A stretch of DNA of 52,213 bases from Candidatus Bathyarchaeota archaeon (lineage in GTDB: Archaea > Thermoproteota > Bathyarchaeia > Bathyarchaeales > DTEX01). The stretch's first letter is position 1. Each line of letters begins with the position of its first letter. A program made the position numbers and the translations under genes. Positions 14,271 to 33,034 of this stretch are shown here, one piece after another. Below the pieces are notes generated by a model. It saw only the letters and a program-made list of their open reading frames with translations. It searched no databases and had not been told where the DNA came from. The stretch is from positions 1-52,213 of the forward strand of contig JAGTQE010000010.1 in assembly GCA_018396635.1 (NCBI GenBank), written 5' to 3'.

Positions 14271-14357
14271 ATGCATATATTGTATTAACATGTATATACC
14301 ATATTTCGACTATGTATATATGGCCGTTTAAGAATTTCATTTTCGGGATGATCAGAA

Positions 14358-16082
14358 ATGAGGGTGCTTGAGATAAGTCCCCTAGAGGGTAAGATACTAA
14401 AAGTTATAATTGTGGAGAAAGAGTATAGTGAACCGTTCTCAATCTCCGAGCCTCTGCAAGAATATTCTAGGAACTTGGTTCCAACAGCCTTTAAGCCATC
14501 TATAGCCTTCTGTAGTTTCCTTGAGAGGCTTATTGATGAAGTTAAGCCGGATTTTGCAACTGAGGAGCTAGGGAATCGATCACTGAAAGATTTCGCTGAG
14601 AACAATGTTTTAGTCCAGATATTCAGGAAGAAGGGCGTACCCCTCTTTGCCGTCGATATCGATGAGTATGCTAGAGAGAGCCTGGCTTCTCTAATAGATG
14701 AGAAAAAGCGCTTGAGGGATGAAGTTGTTAAAGCTATTGAGCAGATCTCTAAGAAGGAGGGGAAGGAACGTAGCTTTGAGGAGGAGTATTTAACTGCTCT
14801 CCTCCAGTGTCTACAGCAGGAAATTGAGGAGGCTGAGAGGGAAATAAAGTTCAACGTTAGGGAGAAATGGATAGCTATGGGTATACTGGAGAACGCCAGA
14901 AAGGTTGAGAAGAGCGAGGTTACATGCATACATATATCCAGTCCAGAGCATGTGGATGGAGTCAGAAAAACTCTGGAGTCCGTTGACGTCATAGTAGAAA
15001 CAATAAAACCAATAAAGAAAGTTGTCTTCGCCGAGAAAGCTTCTCCAATTAGCTTAAAAGACCTTCTAGAGTCCGCGCAGATCCAGCTGAAGCCAGTTGT
15101 AAGAAGATCTTCTGAGGAGACTCCATATATACTGATCTTTATGGACACCGATGAGAAGGCAAGCCCATTTGATATATGTATGGCTTATGATGCGGGGTTC
15201 AACGTCGTCGTCCCATATGGAAATGTTTCAGCTAACGATGCTAAAAGAATAGTTCAGGACGCTCTCTTCTCAAGGGACTTAAAGGGAGTCAAGAGGACGT
15301 GTTTCTTTATCGGCGGAAAAGATATGGATAAGGCTGAAGAAATTCTGAAGGTTGTTCAAGAAGCGATGTTTCCACCATTCAAGACCAACATAATAATAGA
15401 TCCAGCCGGAGCATACACCACGGCGGCAGCGATGGTGGCAAAGGTCGAGGATGCATTAGCGCGTTCAGGCCTAGGCAGCTTAAGGGATAAGAGGTGCGCA
15501 GTATTCGGAACCGGACCAGTTGGTAGAACGGCCGCAATCCTACTGTCTAAGATGGGATGCGATGTTACAATAGTCAGCCCTAACCCACAGCGTAAGGATG
15601 GAGAGGAGTACGTTTCAAACCTATCTAACCTGATTCGCACTAAATATGGCGCTGAGGTTAAAGGGGTCTTCGCCCCAACCAGAGAGAAGAAGATTGAAGT
15701 TATGGAGAGAGCCGACGTAATCTTCTGCGCAGCTGGAGCAGGGATTCAAATAATTGATAAAGAGATGTTGAATGCCATGAAGCTTAGCAAGGTGATAGTC
15801 GATGTTAACGCTGTGCCGCCATTAGGTGTGGAAGGAATAAAGCTTGACGACGATATGAGGGAGATATCTCCAGGAATATTTGCTATAGGCGCCTTAGCCG
15901 TTGGACGGCTGAAACATAAGGTTGAACAGGAAATCTTGCTGGAGGCTCGGAGAAGCGAGAAAGCGACCGTTTTCGACTACAATTACGCGCTCCAGCTGGC
16001 GCGAAGAATTTTGAGAGGAGAAGTATTAGCTAAGAGATTGACAGTGACCATAAGTCCGCCTGTTAGGAAAGGCAGGGCGTAG
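14358..16082 (+). CDS. Two-domain protein with C-terminal MtdA/MtdB-like dehydrogenase
   Basis: A 574-aa protein in two parts. Residues from about 255 onward match the bacterial NAD(P)-dependent methylene-tetrahydromethanopterin/folate dehydrogenases MtdA/MtdB. They show ILIFMDTDEKASPFD, MAYDAGFNVVVPYG, CFFIGGKDMDKAEEIL, the FPPFKTN block, AGAYTTAAAMVAK, and a Rossmann loop VFGTGPVGRTAA near residue 383. It would oxidise or reduce C1 units bound to a pterin, using NAD(P). Residues 1-235 are extra. They contain KPDFATEELGNRSLKDFA and a charged coiled stretch (130-175), then REKWIAMGIL and a HISSPEHVDGV strand. The last two recall the end of TraB/GumN-like domains, but that is tentative. Known MtdA/B proteins are about 290 aa, so this is a fusion. 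Archaea usually use F420-dependent Mtd. Confidence 0.75.
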   Translation: MRVLEISPLEGKILKVIIVEKEYSEPFSISEPLQEYSRNLVPTAFKPSIAFCSFLERLIDEVKPDFATEELGNRSLKDFAENNVLVQIFRKKGVPLFAVDIDEYARESLASLIDEKKRLRDEVVKAIEQISKKEGKERSFEEEYLTALLQCLQQEIEEAEREIKFNVREKWIAMGILENARKVEKSEVTCIHISSPEHVDGVRKTLESVDVIVETIKPIKKVVFAEKASPISLKDLLESAQIQLKPVVRRSSEETPYILIFMDTDEKASPFDICMAYDAGFNVVVPYGNVSANDAKRIVQDALFSRDLKGVKRTCFFIGGKDMDKAEEILKVVQEAMFPPFKTNIIIDPAGAYTTAAAMVAKVEDALARSGLGSLRDKRCAVFGTGPVGRTAAILLSKMGCDVTIVSPNPQRKDGEEYVSNLSNLIRTKYGAEVKGVFAPTREKKIEVMERADVIFCAAGAGIQIIDKEMLNAMKLSKVIVDVNAVPPLGVEGIKLDDDMREISPGIFAIGALAVGRLKHKVEQEILLEARRSEKATVFDYNYALQLARRILRGEVLAKRLTVTISPPVRKGRA

Positions 16083-16087
16083 AGGTA

Positions 16088-17110
16088 TCAGAGCGGCTTA
16101 AAGGATCTATTAATGGCTATCTCAGCTATATCCGCAGAATACTCAGCTATCCTCGATATACTATCGCGTAGTGAACAGCAGGCGCATATAGACTCAGCGC
16201 TCTTCTCTTCAGAGAACGATAAAATAGCTATCTCCTCATTCATCTTCTCTAATTCCATCCTCCTCTCAATGATATCATTTAAATCGTCTACTTTATTAGA
16301 TAAGAAGGCGGAAAGCGCCCTATCAAAATTATTCACGGCTTCAAAGCCTGCAAAACAGATTTTTTCCCTAACAATGTCGGATATGCCTTTACCCCTTCTA
16401 TTGAGCATTATGACATGTCTTGCCACATTTACAGCCTGGTCAGCCGTCTGCTCTATGCGGTGAATTAAGGTCTGATAGTCTAGGCAGTCTATTGCGTCAA
16501 GCCCAAGCTCATTTGCCAGAGCGGGATTTATAGCTGCCTTACGAATCAACCTTAAAAGGAAGAACGAGAAGCGGTCAACCTCATCATCGAGACTGTAAAC
16601 CGATTTTGCGAGATCAGAGTTCTGGTCTTTAAGAGATGTGAACGAGTCGCGGCACATAGAGCTAGAAACTTTATGCATCCTCGAGATTCCAGCTTGTACA
16701 GAGCCCTTAGACTCGTCTAGAAAGGTCATCATATTAATCTCCCTCACATCAGCCTCCATAATTCGCATGTAAAGCGACTGCGCAATCCTCTGTATAACCC
16801 TCTGCTGGGATGCTGAGAAGAAGCCTTTTGAGACAAGCTTAATATGTGAGTAGCCATTAAGATAGCAAGCAATTATCTTTCTGGATATAGCCGTATGCTT
16901 TTCGTCAGGCTCCACATGAAGTGTTATACTGCTTGTCTCATTCTCCCTCTTAAGCCCAGGGAAGATCACTAGAGCGCGGTCACGACTAACGGCTACTGAA
17001 ACAACATCCCCTGCCTTCAGCCCAATTGATTGAATCCAGTATTTTGGAAGGGAGATGACTAACGACGATCTCCCAAGAGATATTATTCTTCTCCGCTCCA
17101 TAAATTTCAC
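16088..17110 (-). CDS. AbrB-type DNA-binding/PhoU-domain regulator (copy 1)
   Basis: A 340-aa protein joining an N-terminal SpoVT/AbrB swapped-hairpin domain (residues 4-50: RRIISLGRSSLVISLPKYW, then GLKAGDVVSVAV) to C-terminal helical PhoU-like repeats. The repeats carry acidic, metal-binding-type patterns (SLDDEVDRFSFFLLRLI and later EKMNEEIAILSF). In archaea this pairing is annotated as a phosphate-uptake regulator. No pst or pit transporter gene lies nearby, so the phosphate link is by family only. A homologue with the same architecture is at 24.9 kb. It is convergent with the MtdA/B-like fusion gene, 5 bases apart. A long A+T-rich spacer (17111-17230) lies upstream. Confidence 0.85.
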   Translation of the reverse strand: MKFMERRRIISLGRSSLVISLPKYWIQSIGLKAGDVVSVAVSRDRALVIFPGLKRENETSSITLHVEPDEKHTAISRKIIACYLNGYSHIKLVSKGFFSASQQRVIQRIAQSLYMRIMEADVREINMMTFLDESKGSVQAGISRMHKVSSSMCRDSFTSLKDQNSDLAKSVYSLDDEVDRFSFFLLRLIRKAAINPALANELGLDAIDCLDYQTLIHRIEQTADQAVNVARHVIMLNRRGKGISDIVREKICFAGFEAVNNFDRALSAFLSNKVDDLNDIIERRMELEKMNEEIAILSFSEEKSAESICACCSLRDSISRIAEYSADIAEIAINRSFKPL

Positions 17111-17640: not shown

Positions 17641-19131
17641 TCATGCAACAGCGCTTATCTCAACCTTATGCTTCGCCTTCCATTCCTCAACGGGGACTCC
17701 CAGAGATTTTTCTATCAGAGATCTATGTATTGAATTCATTGTGCAGAACGGTATTATCCTGCCATCTGGGACAGCGTAATGTATAACGCAGCGCTGAACT
17801 CTCTCTAAATCGAAGTTGTACGGATCCATAAAATGCATGGCCGAAATCATAATCATCTTTCTATGTAAATCTCCTAGTGCCTTATAACTGCCCGTCTTGA
17901 GAACCGGCCACACATATTTTCTGAGCATGCCGAGCTTTACGTGGCGTAGCGCCCCAATAAGATGCATCTTAGCCCTAGACTTATGGCCCTTTGATGCTTC
18001 CTCGTATACACGCCTCATAGATCTAATAAAGCCTTCAACGTTGGCATACCTTGTTATTGGAACGATCCGTCCATCCTCGACAAATATATATGTTGCCATT
18101 CCACAGTGCGGATGCGCTGTAAACTCAACATAACGTCTATTTTTTATCGCTCCAACAGCCTTAGATACTGGAACAACAGTCGGTACTGGATAGAAGTCGG
18201 ATATCTTTATCTGCCCATTAGTCTGCTCCTCGACGAGCTTCATCCAGTCCGGTATTGTTATGCGCATGCTCATGCGCTCCTTAGCCGGTATCCTTCCGCA
18301 TAAGGATACTGGCTGAAAGTTTACGCATCTGACAACATCAGAGTTCTTTACAGCAAATCTAATTATATCGCCAACCTCACGGTCATTCACTCCCTTAATA
18401 AGAGTGCACACTAAAACCACGCTATCAATGCCAGCCTTTCTACAGTTTTCTATAGCCTTCTCTTTAACCTCAATTAGGTTGACGCCCCTAGTGAACTTAT
18501 AAACCTCTGGAGACACGCCATCAAACTGCAGGTAGATTGTGCTGACGCCAGCTTCCCTAAGGGTCCGGCAGAAGTCTAGGTCTGAGGCAATCCTAAGTCC
18601 ATTAGTGTTGACCTCGACATGCTTAAAACCCAGCTCCTTCGCCATCCTAATTATTTGAGGAAGATCCTCCCTGATTGTTGGCTCTCCACCAGATAGTTGA
18701 AGGGCCTCTGCTGGGACAGGCTTATTATTACGCAGGTTTACTAGCATCCCTCTTATGTCATCTATTGTCGGCTCGTAGACATATCCAGCTGTTCCAGCCG
18801 TCGCAAAGCATACCGGACAGCGTAGGTTGCAGCGGTTTGTAACATCTATTATTGCGAGGACGGTGTGGGACTTATGCTGCGGGCATATCCCACAGTCATA
18901 TGGGCAGCCGCTTTTCGTTATAGTCCTTGGATTTTCGAGCCCTTCACCAATATAATCAAATATCTTCGCCTTTTCATAAACCCCGTAGTCAGACCAGTAG
19001 ATATCTTGGAATGGACCGTGCTCAGGACATTCCTTCGCAATGTAAACAACATTATTCTCCTCAAATATAACAGCATCTAGAACTTTGAGACATTCTGGGC
19101 AGATGCTTTTCGTCCGCTTTATCTCCCTCAT
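17641..19131 (-). CDS. tes: Radical SAM tetraether-lipid synthase (Tes-like)
   Basis: Resembles the radical SAM enzyme Tes (the MJ0619 type), which joins two archaeol tails to make membrane-spanning tetraether lipids. An N-terminal CPECLKVLDAVIFEE zinc-like block is followed by the family's SGCPYDCGICPQHKSHTV Cys cluster. Then comes the radical SAM site CNLRCPVC (CxxxCxxC), and the SAM-binding LQLSGGEPTIREDLP. Later cysteines (SLCGR, HPHCGM) probably bind further clusters. The ATG at 19131 follows GGTGGGT and fits the family start; a start 15 codons upstream is also open. The gene predicts GDGT-type lipids, consistent with a thermophile or TACK archaeon. Product assignment is by family. Confidence 0.88.
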   Translation of the reverse strand: MREIKRTKSICPECLKVLDAVIFEENNVVYIAKECPEHGPFQDIYWSDYGVYEKAKIFDYIGEGLENPRTITKSGCPYDCGICPQHKSHTVLAIIDVTNRCNLRCPVCFATAGTAGYVYEPTIDDIRGMLVNLRNNKPVPAEALQLSGGEPTIREDLPQIIRMAKELGFKHVEVNTNGLRIASDLDFCRTLREAGVSTIYLQFDGVSPEVYKFTRGVNLIEVKEKAIENCRKAGIDSVVLVCTLIKGVNDREVGDIIRFAVKNSDVVRCVNFQPVSLCGRIPAKERMSMRITIPDWMKLVEEQTNGQIKISDFYPVPTVVPVSKAVGAIKNRRYVEFTAHPHCGMATYIFVEDGRIVPITRYANVEGFIRSMRRVYEEASKGHKSRAKMHLIGALRHVKLGMLRKYVWPVLKTGSYKALGDLHRKMIMISAMHFMDPYNFDLERVQRCVIHYAVPDGRIIPFCTMNSIHRSLIEKSLGVPVEEWKAKHKVEISAVA

Positions 19132-19244
19132 ACCCACCACTATCAAGGCGTATAAAGAGAGATTGTTCTTGGACATATAAGAAATTTTTTGATTTTCGCT
19201 TCACGCCCAGATCCTCAGTCAGAAGTAGACCTGTTCTCCGGAGA

Positions 19245-24754: not shown

Positions 24755-24865
24755 ATGATGGCTAAAAAAGAGTATTTTAGACTTTTGTTACATAAGCCTA
24801 TCCACTATATGGCTATTTTTAGGCTTAAATTATTTAGCTGCTTTATAAGTCCTTTTGAATGCTAA
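24755..24865 (+). CDS. Possible 36-aa small protein
   Basis: AAGGAGGTTG, an almost perfect Shine-Dalgarno site, precedes the tandem ATGs at 24755 and 24758. The product (MMAKKEYFRLLLHKPIHYMA and a hydrophobic end) is basic then hydrophobic, possibly membrane-associated. Its stop overlaps the end of the opposite-strand regulator gene by 4 bases. It could also be the decayed start of a longer gene. Support is the ribosome-binding site only. Confidence 0.3.
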   Translation: MMAKKEYFRLLLHKPIHYMAIFRLKLFSCFISPFEC

Positions 24866-25920
24866 TTTCTTGGATGGATATGCCTAATTATTTTGACGAC
24901 GTCCCTAACATGCTTGTTATGTTCATGAATTGCCTTGTTTATAGCTATATTTGCGCATATTGCTCCAATATTTATTATGTTGGTTAGACCCGAAACCATC
25001 GCCCTTAAATAAGGTATCTCTGGAAGCTCCTGCATGAGTCTCTCAGCCTCAATATTAAGGGCACTCCTCATATCAAGTATACTATTCGCAATCTTGATAT
25101 CCCCTGTGAAGAAACAGTCGATAGCTCTTTGAAACACTGTTTTGACAGCCTCGCTAAATTCAAAAAGTCTCTTCAAAATAGGTTCGCTTACTCTATCCCT
25201 ATAAACTTTGAAAGCTATAACTTTTTTCGCTATATCCTCAGAGCAATCACCTATAAGCTCTAGAGCCTGCAGTATTAATCGCATAGCCGGTATGAGAAGC
25301 ACATCAGATATGCCTAATTTTTCAGCAACATCAAAGTTCTTTTGAGCATGTAATAGTAAGCGTGTGCCTAAGTAATAAATTGTATCTGCCTCATCTTCAT
25401 GCTCAATAGCTTCCTTAATTAAGGACTCGTCATTCTCTACTAGGGCTTGGATGGCTTTGGAGAGCACTGTTGAAGAAATTATAGATAGGCGTCTAATTAG
25501 CATATCAATCTTAAATTTAGCTGGATCTAAAGAACATTGTAAAAGTATAGAGTTTGGATTTTCCTCAATTATGCCTAAACCAATGAGTTTGCGCGTTATT
25601 CTTCGAACCGTATCTATGTGGGTCTTATGTATGCGGTTTGATGAAACTACCGTGATTACGCTGCATCCAAGAATATAACTGCCAACAATTAATCTTTCAA
25701 GCATACTGCTTCCATCACATGCATCAACATCAATAATATACTCTTCTTCAACCTCGCCTTCATGGAATAATTGACTTGGCATAATCTTTAATGCGCCATT
25801 TTTATCCGGCACTATAAAGACTATATCGCCTGGCTTAATGCCGTTCTCTTTGACCCATTTATTTGGCAGTGAGACAGTTATAGTTGAGCGGCCAACTCTT
25901 TGTAATTTTCTGCTCTCCAC
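24862..25920 (-). CDS. AbrB-type DNA-binding/PhoU-domain regulator (copy 2)
   Basis: The same two-part architecture as the 16.1 kb protein. It has an AbrB-type start (VESRKLQRVGRSTITVSLPN, then NGIKPGDIVFIVPDKNG) and helical PhoU-like repeats with acidic clusters (EHEDEADTIYYLGTRLLLHA). About 352 aa. I chose GTG 25920 because AGGTGGAG lies just upstream. The two proteins have clearly diverged, so this is an old duplication or two separate family members. It is divergent from the ribbon-helix-helix/GcvH gene and could regulate it through the shared 107-base spacer. No phosphate transporter gene is nearby. A TauE-type anion permease lies 0.8 kb away. Confidence 0.83.
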   Translation of the reverse strand: MESRKLQRVGRSTITVSLPNKWVKENGIKPGDIVFIVPDKNGALKIMPSQLFHEGEVEEEYIIDVDACDGSSMLERLIVGSYILGCSVITVVSSNRIHKTHIDTVRRITRKLIGLGIIEENPNSILLQCSLDPAKFKIDMLIRRLSIISSTVLSKAIQALVENDESLIKEAIEHEDEADTIYYLGTRLLLHAQKNFDVAEKLGISDVLLIPAMRLILQALELIGDCSEDIAKKVIAFKVYRDRVSEPILKRLFEFSEAVKTVFQRAIDCFFTGDIKIANSILDMRSALNIEAERLMQELPEIPYLRAMVSGLTNIINIGAICANIAINKAIHEHNKHVRDVVKIIRHIHPRN

Positions 25921-26027
25921 TACTCTCCACCTATATATTATATTTACCAATAATTATTCTATTTGCGGCAAATATATATTTTTCGCTTATGTTATATATC
26001 ACTCAAGTGTAAAGGAGGGTGAAATGT

Positions 26028-28234: not shown

Positions 28235-28726
28235 TTGTCGTCTGAAGATAGACGGTTACAGATGCTTGAGCGGATTATGCGGGAACATGGATACGATAAA
28301 AGTGCTCTTCTTGAGATCCTCCATATGGCACATGAATTATACGGTTACTTTGACAAAAACCTTCTTAACTATATATCCAGCCGCTTAAATCTTCCTCCAA
28401 GCCACGTTTATGGAGTTGCTTCATTCTATAATCTCTTTAAATTTAGAAGACCCGGAGAGCACGTTATCTCAGCATGTATGGGTACGGCATGTTATGTGAA
28501 GGGCGTTGAGGAAATAGTGTCGGCGATTGAGAGAGAATTTAATATTAAGCGCGGGGGGTCCAGTCCTGATGGAAGAATCTCATTATTTATTACTCGCTGT
28601 ATTGGGGCCTGTGCGATGGCTCCAAATATAACTATAGATGGTGAAGTTATTGGAAGGGCTACGAAGGAAGCTGTTTTAGAGAGAATAAGGAAGGTTCTTG
28701 GAGGAGGGGTTGTTGAAGCCAGATGA
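28235..28726 (+). CDS. hoxE: NAD-linked hydrogenase subunit HoxE (NuoE-like)
   Basis: The 24-kDa-type subunit carrying a [2Fe-2S] cluster. At 163 aa it has the helical N-terminal part (LLEILHMAHELYGYFDKNLL, HVYGVASFYNLFKF) and a thioredoxin-like fold. The four cluster ligands are Cys81, Cys86 (CMGTAC), Cys122 and Cys126 (CIGAC). The start is a TTG behind GGCGGGGT; an internal ATG at 28262 would also give a nearly complete protein. It is the first gene of five overlapping plus-strand hydrogenase genes and overlaps hoxF. It passes electrons between the flavin subunit and the rest of the diaphorase module. Confidence 0.9.
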   Translation: MSSEDRRLQMLERIMREHGYDKSALLEILHMAHELYGYFDKNLLNYISSRLNLPPSHVYGVASFYNLFKFRRPGEHVISACMGTACYVKGVEEIVSAIEREFNIKRGGSSPDGRISLFITRCIGACAMAPNITIDGEVIGRATKEAVLERIRKVLGGGVVEAR

Positions 28727-30356
28727 TATTTTAAGGGTGGCTGAAAGAGAGGCTGAGAAGCAAAGGGCATATAAGTCTAGAATAAATGTTTGCTGTTCAA
28801 GCGGATGTCTACCCTTCGGCGCACTGCAGGTTTTAAAAGCATTTGAAAGCGCCATTAAAGAGTATGGGCTTGAGGGAGAGTGTAAAGTATCTAGGACTGG
28901 ATGCATAGGGACATGCTCTGTTGGACCGGTGGCTTTAATAGAGCCAGGCGGCTTTCTCTATCAAAATATTACTCCTGAGAATGCCAAGGAGATAGTTAAG
29001 CGCCACATAATTTCTGGCGAACCAGTAAAGGAGTTACTATATGCAAATGAAGCTTTCTTTAAAAAGCAGTATAGGCTTGTCTTAAGAAATGCCGGCAGGA
29101 TAGACCCCCTAAGAATAGAGGAATATATAATGGTGGGCGGCTACTCCGCGCTAATTAAATGCCTAACTAAGATGACTCCGAAAGAGGTTATAGATGAGGT
29201 TATTGCAAGCGGGTTGAGAGGGCGCGGTGGGGCTGGCTTTCCAACAGGGCAGAAATGGAATTTTGTTGCTAGGGAGAAAGCCACGCCAAAATATGTTATT
29301 GCAAATTTGGACGAAGGCGACCCTGGAGTCTTCGCGAACAGAACTCTTGCCGAAGCCGATCCGCATGCGATAATTGAAGGCATGACGATAGCAGCCTATG
29401 CTGTTGGGGCAGAGAAAGGCTACATTTATGTCAGAGCTGAGTATCCTTTAGCGGTCCAAACTTTGAGGGAAGCTCTGAAACAGGCAAAGTCAATGAATCT
29501 TGTAGGGGAGAATATTCTTGAGACCCAGTTTAACTTTGATATAGAGTTAAGAATGGGGGCAGGAGCTTTCGTTGCTGGAGAAGAAACGGGTATACTTGCA
29601 TCTATAGAGGGTCGGAGGGCAACGCCTAGGCCGCGTCCACCATATCCGGCCACTTCAGGATTATGGGGGAAACCTACGTTAATACAGAATGTTGAAACGC
29701 TAGCAAATGTGCCGCTTATAATACTTAATGGTGGAAATTGGTTCGCTAAAATAGGAACACCTAAGTGTACTGGAACAAAATGCTTCTCATTAACTGGTAA
29801 AGTCAATAACCCTGGTCTAATCGAGGTTCCAATGGGCATAACGCTTAGGGAGATAGTGTTTGAGATTGGTGGAGGGGTTCCGGCGGGAAGAAAGTTTAAG
29901 GCCGTGCTGGTTGGCGGCCCCTCCGGCGGGTGTTTACCGGAGAGTGCGCTGGATTTGCCAATAGATTATGAGTCGCTAACTAAAGCTGGCGCCATTATGG
30001 GCTCTGGCGGAATAGTTGTTATCGATGATGAGTCATGCATGGTTGATACTGCCTGGTTCTTTACGGACTTTTGTGTTGATGAGTCGTGCGGCAAATGTGT
30101 TCCCTGTAGGGTTGGATTGCTGAAGATGAGGAATATTCTTGAGAGGATTATGAGGGGTGAAGGTAGATTAGAAGATTTGGATCTTCTCCAGGAGCTAGGT
30201 GAATATGTGAGGGATGTAAGTCTTTGCGGCTTAGGTCAAACAGCTCCAAATCCAATTCTAACAACATTACGTTACTTTAGGGACGAATATATTGCCCACA
30301 TAGTTGATAAGAAATGCCCGGCTGGTAAATGCTTTAGGCTGGAGGCTGAAATATGA
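28713..30356 (+). CDS. hoxF: NAD(P)-reducing hydrogenase flavin subunit HoxF (NuoF-like)
   Basis: The FMN- and NAD(P)-binding subunit. The N-terminus has an extra thioredoxin-like [2Fe-2S] domain (CCSSGC and CIGTC). The FMN/NAD core has GLRGRGGAGFPTGQKW, LDEGDPGVFANR and GAGAFVAGEETGIL. The C-terminal [4Fe-4S] site ESCGKCVPCR with the distal SLCGLG follows, and the protein ends in KKCPAGKCF, whose two cysteines recall HndC/HydB-type proteins. TTG 28713 is chosen because GGAGGAGG ends 5 bases before it; a TTG at 28698 is also open. It overlaps hoxE by 14 bases and hoxU by 4 (ATGA). It would reduce NAD(P)+ with electrons from H2, or run in reverse. Confidence 0.92.
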   Translation: MKPDDILRVAEREAEKQRAYKSRINVCCSSGCLPFGALQVLKAFESAIKEYGLEGECKVSRTGCIGTCSVGPVALIEPGGFLYQNITPENAKEIVKRHIISGEPVKELLYANEAFFKKQYRLVLRNAGRIDPLRIEEYIMVGGYSALIKCLTKMTPKEVIDEVIASGLRGRGGAGFPTGQKWNFVAREKATPKYVIANLDEGDPGVFANRTLAEADPHAIIEGMTIAAYAVGAEKGYIYVRAEYPLAVQTLREALKQAKSMNLVGENILETQFNFDIELRMGAGAFVAGEETGILASIEGRRATPRPRPPYPATSGLWGKPTLIQNVETLANVPLIILNGGNWFAKIGTPKCTGTKCFSLTGKVNNPGLIEVPMGITLREIVFEIGGGVPAGRKFKAVLVGGPSGGCLPESALDLPIDYESLTKAGAIMGSGGIVVIDDESCMVDTAWFFTDFCVDESCGKCVPCRVGLLKMRNILERIMRGEGRLEDLDLLQELGEYVRDVSLCGLGQTAPNPILTTLRYFRDEYIAHIVDKKCPAGKCFRLEAEI

Positions 30357-31060
30357 GTGGAACTGGGGTAGTTAAATTAAAAATAGATGGTGTGGAAGTA
30401 ACGGCTAATGAAGGAGAAACTATTTTAAGTGCTGCGAAAAGAGCTGGAATAAAGATTCCGGCGTTATGTTATTTGGATGGTTTAAGCAGTTATGGTGGCT
30501 GCCGCCTTTGCATAGTTGAGGTTAAAGGCTCGCCGAGGCTTTTCCCAGCATGCACAACCCCGGTTAGTAATGGGATGGAAGTTACTACAGACTCGCCAAA
30601 GCTGAGAAAATATAGGAAGATGACCATAGAACTTCTGCTGTCGGAGAAACCACATATATGCGCTATTTGCATTGCAAACGGCAATTGCGAGCTACAGGAC
30701 TTGGCAAGAGAGTTTGGCGTTGATCATTTAAGGGTTGAGCGAGAATGGAAAAGTCAAAAGATCGACTTGTCGCATAGCTTCCTAGTCTTAGATAACAACA
30801 GGTGTATCTTATGTACTCGGTGCTTGAGAGTATGCGATGAGATTGAGGGTGTTCATGCTTTAGATATAAAGATGAGAGGAAAAGATTCTCAGATAATAAT
30901 AGACATCGATGACGACTGGGGTTCTTCTATATCATGCACATCATGTAGAAAATGCGCTAGAGTATGTCCCGTTGGAGCAATATATGTCAGAGACGAGCCT
31001 ATCTCAAGGACGAAAAATAAGGATATAGCGCAATTCATACTTCTTAGGAGGAGACGTTAA
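30353..31060 (+). CDS. hoxU: Hydrogenase diaphorase ferredoxin subunit HoxU
   Basis: The NuoG N-terminal-like iron-sulfur subunit, 235 aa. A plant-type [2Fe-2S] ferredoxin domain comes first (CYLDGLSSYGGCRLCIVEV and a later CTT). It is followed by the histidine/cysteine [4Fe-4S] block (HICAICIANGNCELQDL), and two ferredoxin-type CxxCxxC sets (CILCTRCLRVC, CTSCRKCARVCPVG). It links HoxF to the hydrogenase pair HoxYH. It starts at an ATGA overlap with hoxF and ends in a TAATG overlap with hoxY, so the operon is tightly coupled. Confidence 0.92.
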   Translation: MSGTGVVKLKIDGVEVTANEGETILSAAKRAGIKIPALCYLDGLSSYGGCRLCIVEVKGSPRLFPACTTPVSNGMEVTTDSPKLRKYRKMTIELLLSEKPHICAICIANGNCELQDLAREFGVDHLRVEREWKSQKIDLSHSFLVLDNNRCILCTRCLRVCDEIEGVHALDIKMRGKDSQIIIDIDDDWGSSISCTSCRKCARVCPVGAIYVRDEPISRTKNKDIAQFILLRRRR

Positions 31061-31602
31061 TGAGCAGGGAAAAAAGGATTAATTTTGCGACAGTTTGGCT
31101 TAGTGGTTGCTCGGGCTGTCATATGTCATTTTTAGACCAAGATGAGCTACTAATAGATCTATCTCAGAAAATTAACTTAGTTTATAGCCCGCTTACAGAT
31201 GTTAAAGTCTTTCCAGATGATGTTGATGTAACGATTGTTGAGGGTGCCATTGGAAATGTTGAGCAAATGGAGCTACTTAAAAAAGTCAGGGAGCGTACAA
31301 AGATCCTTATAGCTATTGGCGACTGCGCAATAACGGGAAATGTGCCAGCCATGAGAAATATTATTAACAATAGTCCTGAGGAGGTTCTTAAAAGAGCTTA
31401 TGTCGAGACAGCAGATAAAAATCCTATAATTCCAACAGAGGTCCCGAAATTATTGAGACGTGTCCTCCCACTAAATGAAGTTATTAAAGTTGACTATTAT
31501 ATTCCAGGCTGCCCGCCTCCAGCTTCTCTTATAAATTACGTGTTAACTGAAGTTTTGGCTGGCAGAACGCCAGTTATGGAGGGTAAAGCCAAATATGGAT
31601 AG
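31060..31602 (+). CDS. hoxY: [NiFe]-hydrogenase small subunit HoxY
   Basis: The small subunit, 180 aa, holding the proximal [4Fe-4S] cluster. Ligands are visible as GCSGCH (Cys17 and Cys20), GDCAITGN and PGCPPP. There is no Tat signal, so the enzyme is cytoplasmic, in keeping with group 3 hydrogenases. Short length and a single cluster agree with HoxY rather than longer uptake-type small subunits. The ATG shares a base with the hoxU stop (TAATG), and GGAGGAG lies just upstream. It ends 8 bases inside hoxH. Confidence 0.92.
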   Translation: MSREKRINFATVWLSGCSGCHMSFLDQDELLIDLSQKINLVYSPLTDVKVFPDDVDVTIVEGAIGNVEQMELLKKVRERTKILIAIGDCAITGNVPAMRNIINNSPEEVLKRAYVETADKNPIIPTEVPKLLRRVLPLNEVIKVDYYIPGCPPPASLINYVLTEVLAGRTPVMEGKAKYG

Positions 31603-33034
31603 GGAAAGAAGCAGCATAATAGAGATAAGTCCAGTTACGAGAATTGAGGGTCACGCAAAGGTGACTATACATTTAAATAACGATGGATCTGTCAGAGAAG
31701 CCAGGTTTCATGTGACTGACTTTCGTGGGTTTGAAAAGTTTTGTGAGGGGCGACCGTTTTATGAGATGCCAAGCATAATGTCCAGAATTTGCGGGATATG
31801 TCCTGTTAGCCATCTTCTTGCATCGGCGAAGGCATGCGACGACATATTATCTGTTGATATTCCCGAAACAGCTATCCTACTTAGGCGCCTGATGCATATG
31901 GGGCAAATCATTCAATCCCATGCATTGAGTTTCTTCTTTTTATCGCTACCAGATTTCCTTTTGGGCATGGACTTTGACCCGCATAAGAGGAACATTTTCT
32001 ATTTAATAGAAAATCATCCTGAGGTAATGAAGCAAGGCATAAAGATTAGAGCATTTGGGCAAAAAATAATCGAATATTTATCTGGAAAAAGAATTCATTC
32101 AAGCGAGTGGATTGTTCCGGGAGGCGTTAGGTCACCGTTATCTAAAGATAAAGCTGAAAAAATCATGAGCGAATACAATGATATATTAACTATGACGCTT
32201 GAGAACATCTCTAAATTCAAAAGAATCATGAAAGATTTAAGCTGTGAAATAGAAAGCTTTGGAGACTTTCCAACATACTATATGGGTTTAGTTACACCCC
32301 ATGGTGAACTGGAGCATTATGACGGGCTACTTAGAATTGTTGATGAAAAGGGGCAGATAGTTGTTAATAAAGCTGATCCAAAAAGATATTATGAATATAT
32401 CGGCGAGGCAGTTGAAAATTGGTCTTACATGAAGTTTCCATATTATAAGCCATTGGGCTATCCGAGAGGAGTATATAGGGTTGGCCCGCTGGCGAGACTT
32501 AATATAGTTTCCAAATGCGGCACACCATTAGCCGATAAAGAGCTAGAAGAATTCAGAGAGTGGGGAGAAAATCATGTGGTTCAGAACACACTACTATACC
32601 ATTATGCACGCTTAATTGAGATGCTTTTCTGCATAGAGAAGGTTAAGGAAATCTTAGATAATCCAGAAACATACTCTGATAATATTCAGGCGATGGCTTC
32701 AGTCAATAAGCATATAGGAGTCGGCGTAGTTGAGGCTCCAAGAGGCACACTTATACATCACTATAAGGTTAATAGGCGCGGTTTGGTTGAGCAAGCTAAT
32801 CTGATAATTGCAACTGAGCACAATAACTTGGCATTCAACATTGCTATAACTCAAGCGGCGAAGAGATATATCAATGGTGGGGCTGCCAGCAGGGATCTGT
32901 TGAATAGGATTGAAGCAGTTATACGCGCCTTCGATCCATGCCTAAGCTGCGCTACGCATGCGTGGAAACCGATAAACTTAATTGTTGAAATATATGACTC
33001 GAAAGGAAATATAATACAGAGGTTGACTAAATAG
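31595..33034 (+). CDS. hoxH: [NiFe]-hydrogenase large subunit HoxH
   Basis: The catalytic Ni-Fe subunit, 479 aa. The nickel-binding cysteines are in RICGICPVSH (Cys66, Cys69) and DPCLSCATHA (Cys449, Cys452). RIEGHAKVTI is the usual N-terminal motif. The form RICGICPVSH fits group 3 NAD(P)-linked enzymes. After His455 there is a 24-residue C-terminal extension, the peptide normally removed by a maturation protease. No protease or hyp maturation gene is found in the window, so they must lie elsewhere. It closes the five-gene hoxEFUYH operon. Confidence 0.93.
   Translation: MDRERSSIIEISPVTRIEGHAKVTIHLNNDGSVREARFHVTDFRGFEKFCEGRPFYEMPSIMSRICGICPVSHLLASAKACDDILSVDIPETAILLRRLMHMGQIIQSHALSFFFLSLPDFLLGMDFDPHKRNIFYLIENHPEVMKQGIKIRAFGQKIIEYLSGKRIHSSEWIVPGGVRSPLSKDKAEKIMSEYNDILTMTLENISKFKRIMKDLSCEIESFGDFPTYYMGLVTPHGELEHYDGLLRIVDEKGQIVVNKADPKRYYEYIGEAVENWSYMKFPYYKPLGYPRGVYRVGPLARLNIVSKCGTPLADKELEEFREWGENHVVQNTLLYHYARLIEMLFCIEKVKEILDNPETYSDNIQAMASVNKHIGVGVVEAPRGTLIHHYKVNRRGLVEQANLIIATEHNNLAFNIAITQAAKRYINGGAASRDLLNRIEAVIRAFDPCLSCATHAWKPINLIVEIYDSKGNIIQRLTK

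Follow-up and report, generated by a model that had tools for sequence, protein, structure and literature searches.

One half of the protein described here resembles, from end to end, the dehydrogenases MtdA and MtdB of methylotrophic bacteria and shares with them the Mpt_N domain and conserved residues; bacterial MtdA accepts H4F as well as H4MPT. Enzymes of the same family also occur in archaea. NAD(P)-type Mtd is already in print for Bathyarchaeia (PMC7886697), where archaeal MtdB-type enzymes are common and where what supplies F420H2 to the methylene-H4MPT reductase (Mer) step is called unclear; these stand-alone enzymes come from the same archaeal order as our sequence. F420-dependent Mtd (PF01993, NF002162; here F420-Mtd) catalyzes the reaction of these dehydrogenases with a different electron carrier. 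A review (PMC8498797) lists Mtd under Euryarchaeota and names Fno as the enzyme of hydride transfer between F420 and NADP. Precedent for passing hydride by way of a C1 pterin comes from methanogens, in which Hmd and Mtd together run a coupled reaction between H2 and F420, as described in PMC12350162.

Here, we analyzed a 52,213-nucleotide stretch of DNA from a Candidatus Bathyarchaeota archaeon (the window), in which one gene fuses an N-terminal domain to an MtdB-type dehydrogenase in a single protein. Bacterial MtdA and MtdB lack the N-domain of about 235 amino acids, the form of the loop after the second strand, and the pairing with F420-Mtd that characterize the fused protein, and the stand-alone Bathyarchaeia enzymes lack the N-domain and are found without F420-Mtd in 64 of 65 genomes. 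MtdB in archaeal genomes therefore calls for two readings, a substitute for F420-Mtd where it stands alone and a companion of that enzyme where it is fused. As with Hmd and Mtd, two enzymes would act on one C1 pterin and move hydride between carriers; the carriers there are H2 and F420, whereas here they would be NAD(P)H and F420, in a cycle proposed from genes. The net reaction would be that of Fno (NpdG), a single Rossmann enzyme that works without a C1 carrier. Paired NAD(P)- and F420-linked dehydrogenases on one C1 carrier would link a Hox-fed NAD(P) pool to F420 with no need of Fno or Frh, and the N-domain would stand as a conserved domain of no known fold with a clear partner hypothesis. 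A literature search mainly of journals outside subscription listed no paper on the present fusion or on an MtdB/F420-Mtd pair.

Architecture and distribution of the fused gene

The open reading frame at positions 14358 to 16082 of the window (plus strand, ATG start) is free of interruptions and encodes 574 amino acids, including the motifs quoted in the preliminary description of this DNA. The N-half (residues 1 to 235; positions 14358 to 15062) is known only joined to the C-half, and within it hhalign delimits a TraB/PrgY-like stretch with a conserved SPEH (residues 159 to 211; 14832 to 14990). The MtdA/MtdB-type dehydrogenase region, placed by phmmer to solved chains, covers residues 258 to 552 (15129 to 16013); it contains the Mpt_N domain (PF09176; residues 270 to 350; 15165 to 15407) found by Pfam and an NAD(P)-binding Rossmann part with GTGPVG (residues ∼371 to 487; 15468 to 15818) placed by Pfam and by alignment columns. 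The union proposed earlier, of an N-domain without family assignment and an MtdA/MtdB-type NAD(P) dehydrogenase, is thus borne out by phmmer, Pfam, and the relatives. On the minus strand, a 287-amino-acid open frame (14285 to 15148) lies antisense to the N-half, and we take it to be a shadow frame.

The fused gene is present as a single copy in its own genome (G000; 1.45 Mb in 35 contigs, 99% complete). Among records that bear a name, the nearest comes from isolate SKW196 (a Candidatus Bathyarchaeota assembly), with a full-length identity of 81%. In comparison with this relative (L002), dN was 0.128 for the N-half and 0.092 for the C-half, with dS saturated near 3; selection on the protein is thus purifying in both halves. 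Complete fused frames were recovered from 12 of 61 genomes (60 relatives and the window’s own), the other 11 being 56 to 81% identical to the window’s protein. One genome (G317) carries two fused copies (C34:782-2494 and C91:13006-14712), one of which has an in-frame TGA.

To map the N-half across the order, a profile of 23 rows (alignment A3) was searched in 162 genomes. It was found in 40 of them, in frames of 568 to 607 amino acids together with the dehydrogenase; the exceptions to a full N-half frame lie at contig ends (G001 and G029) or at a run of 100 N (G057). No N-half occurred as a separate gene in the 162 genomes, a full-length profile untuned to the N-half alone found none beyond the order in 398 genomes of the phylum, and the viral contigs searched held no relative. 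The dehydrogenase profile matched 109 of the 162 genomes, comprising 38 of the 40 fused genomes, 65 with a stand-alone gene, four with fragments (G023, G420, G450, and G477), and G048 and G479; the fragments and the last two genomes are kept outside the stand-alone count. Apparent losses of the N-half in G048 and G057 were rejected and not counted, as both have exactly 100 N at the N-half site, and the long Mtd frame of G494 is the same 100-N artefact. Two genomes each carry two head-to-head stand-alone MtdB-type genes (G436:C1:2598-4599 and G437:C10:2-1953).

The dehydrogenase half

Residues 258 to 552 match solved MtdA/MtdB structures (6tlk, 6tge, and 1lu9; chain residues 5 to 288) with an E value of 4e-34 in phmmer. 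In Pfam, Mpt_N scores 97.6 bits against a cut-off of 27 (E value, 4.7e-28), and several Rossmann families match behind it. No NCBIfam family came near its own cut-off among the best 25 of 37 matches to the fused frame, and the FolD domain (THF_DHG_CYH_C) was absent both from the Pfam matches and from those best 25 of 37 NCBIfam matches. The C-half accordingly falls with MtdA/MtdB and does not group with FolD, as had been supposed from the window itself. A second supposition, that MtdA/MtdB is a bacterial speciality, does not survive: stand-alone relatives occur in 65 of the 162 genomes of the order, and the NAD(P)-type Mtd of Bathyarchaeia is in print (PMC7886697). Stand-alone rows in our alignment A7 are 36 to 53% identical to the window’s C-half.

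Conservation was assessed over 38 alignment columns that show no variation across five bacterial MtdB rows, with the long-branch bacterial row L126 left out, and that reach a constancy of at least 94% across 18 stand-alone archaeal rows, a set from which three stand-alone rows nested in the fused clade were removed. The fused set comprised 35 rows, of which 32 are full N-domain fusions, two have the N-half cut by a gap, and one is an Mtd fusion; in this set, 33 of the 38 columns are held at 94% or more, and in the other five the commonest residue is unchanged. Five columns distinguish the fused class. In addition, the fused proteins have a longer loop behind the second Rossmann strand, which reads SxNPxR rather than SRSLxR, unlike both MtdA and stand-alone MtdB, so that a preference for NAD or NADP is not callable from sequence. 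We consider it very probable that the C-half functions as a methylene-H4MPT dehydrogenase of the NAD(P) type.

In a tree of 62 C-half rows, the fused C-halves other than L019 form one set of 37 rows (support 99/99), together with G479, G014, G018, and G019. The last three are stand-alone C-halves that sit inside the fused clade and come from genomes without F420-Mtd; they may represent true loss of the N-half together with F420-Mtd. A single fused clade set apart from G014, G018, and G019 was not rejected by the AU test (p 0.098), from which L019 (G057), a long branch outside the fused clade, was excluded.

Pairing with F420-dependent Mtd

The genome of the window encodes a full-length F420-Mtd (C31:60644-61462) that scores 372 bits with the NCBI equivalog against a cut-off of 297. 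The earlier suggestion that the NAD(P) enzyme makes up for an absent F420-Mtd therefore fails. Across the order, F420-Mtd (PF01993) was detected in 71 of 162 genomes: in 37 of the 40 fused genomes, in a single one (G438) of the 65 with stand-alone MtdB, and in 31 of the 51 with neither. Our search for F420-Mtd found none in the fused genomes G008, G489, and G492.

The Fisher test for this co-occurrence gives p 1e-23, a value overstated by treating related genomes as independent and therefore given no weight by itself. When changes are instead placed on the C-half tree, three independent changes of the N-half can be compared, two of which track F420-Mtd and one of which makes no difference (sign test, p 0.5); the pairing in this sense rests on few independent evolutionary changes. 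The stronger case comes from the neighborhood, which is kept over six family codes (f1, f2, f4, f6, f7, and f8) despite N-halves that diverge at up to half of their positions. The fused gene directly adjoins F420-Mtd in 31 of 40 genomes; in 28 of these 31, Mtd lies upstream on the same strand with 114 to 211 bases between the matches, and in the other 3 the two genes are divergent. They are separate in the window’s genome and in G004, G009, G024, G045, and G057. The preliminary description had set its reading against the case of an F420-Mtd that is present beside an idle fused gene. An F420-Mtd is indeed present, and conservation together with the pairing argues that the fused gene is in use.

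Elsewhere in the order, one genome joins the two enzymes themselves: a 603-amino-acid frame (G479:C12; L133 664-2472) consists of F420-Mtd followed by an MtdB-type dehydrogenase, without the N-domain and without any N in its sequence. The F420-Mtd portion stops short of the final residues, and the frame comes from a single metagenome assembly, so misassembly is possible. In G042, genes close to the fused gene and F420-Mtd include cdhA (over cut-off) and one that is FrhB-like. The F420-Mtd gene of G004 follows Nfn-like NADPH genes, which could handle NADPH by an alternative route.

Several smaller observations concern these loci. In G489, where F420-Mtd went undetected, the fused gene and a set of flavoprotein genes are divergent (L161 3203-7485), and one of the flavoproteins carries an FlpD domain. 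The F420-Mtd sequences of the window’s genus (L106, L109, and L110) have an N-terminal motif unlike that of the type found beside the fused gene in other families (L099 to L104), and they adjoin a pseudouridine-synthase-like gene, named by eye.

A proposed hydride exchange on a C1 carrier

The fusion, its family, the conserved residues, the presence of both enzymes, their adjacency, and their co-occurrence are seen in the genomes; catalysis, cofactor, direction of flow, and a role for the N-domain are inferred. The fused enzyme would interconvert methenyl-H4MPT+ and methylene-H4MPT with NAD(P)H, and F420-Mtd would interconvert the same pair with F420H2. If one enzyme ran forward and the other backward, the net reaction would be NADPH + F420 ↔ NADP+ + F420H2, with the C1 pterin as a hydride shuttle between them. 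The window also contains, as had been noted, a Hox-type NAD(P)-linked NiFe hydrogenase (HoxE, F, U, Y, and H; positions 28235 to 33034, plus strand), recognized by its domains, with HoxEFU-like subunits; by this route, electrons from H2 could reach F420H2. We give a probability of a little under one-half (about 0.48) to the reading of the fused protein as an active methylene-H4MPT dehydrogenase of the NAD(P) type that acts alongside F420-Mtd as a C1-carrier-mediated F420/NADP exchange.

The N-domain would probably aid this partnership, whether by docking, channelling, or regulation; a role specifically in docking or channelling is conceivable and, on balance, doubtful. A more elaborate version, which we consider clearly unlikely, would make the pair an archaeal two-enzyme F420:NADP transhydrogenase working via methenyl/methylene-H4MPT, in which a new domain confined to this MtdB binds F420-Mtd and channels the pterin, the domain is lost where F420-Mtd is lost, and one lineage has put both enzymes in one chain.

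The distribution of Fno/NpdG has some bearing on the exchange. Within the 61-genome set, it was over cut-off in only four genomes, all stand-alone (G032, G041, G047, and G056), and in none of the 15 fused genomes; G048 likewise has none. It was also below cut-off in the 22 genomes of that set that have F420-Mtd but lack MtdB. The absence of Fno is thus a weak argument, because genomes with F420-Mtd alone are equally without it.

The two enzymes could instead have separate duties and form no cycle. F420-Mtd would then belong to the Wood-Ljungdahl branch, the fused enzyme would supply or withdraw C1 units for biosynthesis with NADP, perhaps on another pterin, and the N-domain would separate the two as an allosteric sensor. 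FolD was over cut-off in none of the 61 genomes, so an NAD(P)-linked biosynthetic C1 step may be needed, and this division of labor also suits the acceptance of both H4F and H4MPT by bacterial MtdA and the occurrence of bacterial relatives of the C-half in operons with mch and pterin genes. However, the adjacency to F420-Mtd and the one-frame fusion better fit a shared task, and the available genes indicate a single H4MPT-type carrier. Mch is found in 54 of 61 genomes, including that of the window, in agreement with the H4MPT-pathway genes sought for this archaeon, and the window encodes a radical SAM protein with an HMPTM zinc ribbon (17641 to 19176, minus strand; Pfam), which, with its function taken from the Pfam name, probably methylates methanopterin precursors. 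We regard separate duties as unlikely, if worth entertaining. One genome of the set (G045) has five Mch matches, on contigs C2, C13, and C26.

A further possibility is that MtdB is displacing F420-Mtd, and that the fused genomes retain an older gene still unlost, as a transitional backup. This predicts the observed lack of F420-Mtd in 64 of 65 genomes with stand-alone MtdB. It sits poorly with the direct adjacency of the two genes in 31 of 40 genomes, which spans six family codes and suggests that the pair is under selection, and with a fused clade old enough for N-half identity to have dropped to 44%. We consider displacement improbable.

The N-terminal half

Pfam placed no family above cut-off on the roughly 235 residues of the window’s N-half. 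Across its 23 aligned relatives (A3), among which identity falls to 44%, no Pfam family was consistent among the 25 of 39 families listed, and scattered weak matches, among them RdRP (5 of 23 N-halves; best E value, 9e-5), were judged to be chance. A profile match to a solved structure (best E value, 0.07) was discarded. The idea that the N-half is a degenerate copy of F420-Mtd was also rejected: no sequence relation to F420-Mtd was found, the hhalign score of 18.9 being equalled by 4 of 60 shuffles.

The likeness to TraB/GumN pointed out in the preliminary description holds for one part of the domain. Compared with archaeal TraB/PrgY (5 rows), the N-half profile shows a weak similarity, with an hhalign score of 37.3 (P 1e-4), that is confined to residues 159 to 211 and was reached by none of 60 column-shuffled controls; the last part of the N-half alone scores 33.0, a value not reached in 200 shuffles. 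The decoys were few, with four unrelated families scoring 10.6 to 15.7 against the N-half profile. The local motif shared with TraB/PrgY/GumN (PF01963) thus lies near the C-end of the N-half, and the remainder is without support, as 17 of 100 shuffles score as high as residues 1 to 150. By eye, the N-terminal GxxH of TraB (GTAH, invariant in the five TraB rows) has no counterpart in the 23 N-half rows, whereas the second TraB motif, GAAH, corresponds to SPEH, whose histidine is missing in 1 of the 23. PF01963 gave no match to the window’s N-half up to an E value of 10, was not among the 25 of 39 families listed for the 23 members, and had no match in a six-frame search of the window’s genome; a search for TraB on plasmids likewise returned no match. 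We treat the N-half as a separate domain that may be distantly related to TraB, rather than as a TraB member.

These results bear on a reading in which the N-half would be active as a hydrolase or protease like TraB/GumN and would perform a second chemical step or control the turnover of F420-Mtd. The local score and the SPEH found where TraB has GAAH favor this activity, but the first 150 residues, the lack of a GTAH counterpart and of a Pfam TraB match, and the histidine missing from one row speak against it, and we consider it improbable. The coiled stretch noted at first inspection has a counterpart in a long helical stretch in both of two predicted structures, although these models, built from two-row alignments, are of low confidence (pLDDT 45.7 and 44.9) and render even the known C-half poorly, so that we rest nothing on them.

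Finally, a C-half that is no longer a dehydrogenase, within a fused protein that regulates or scaffolds F420-Mtd, would suit the coexistence of a full F420-Mtd, by which the step is not missing, but is very improbable given the 33 of 38 bacterial and archaeal MtdB columns kept at 94% or more.

Neighboring genes

The gene next to the fused gene in the window encodes a MazE-PhoU protein (16088 to 17110, minus strand; Pfam). It is convergent to the fused gene here and in all inspected related stretches that extend far enough downstream. A second MazE-PhoU protein is encoded in the window at 24862 to 25950.
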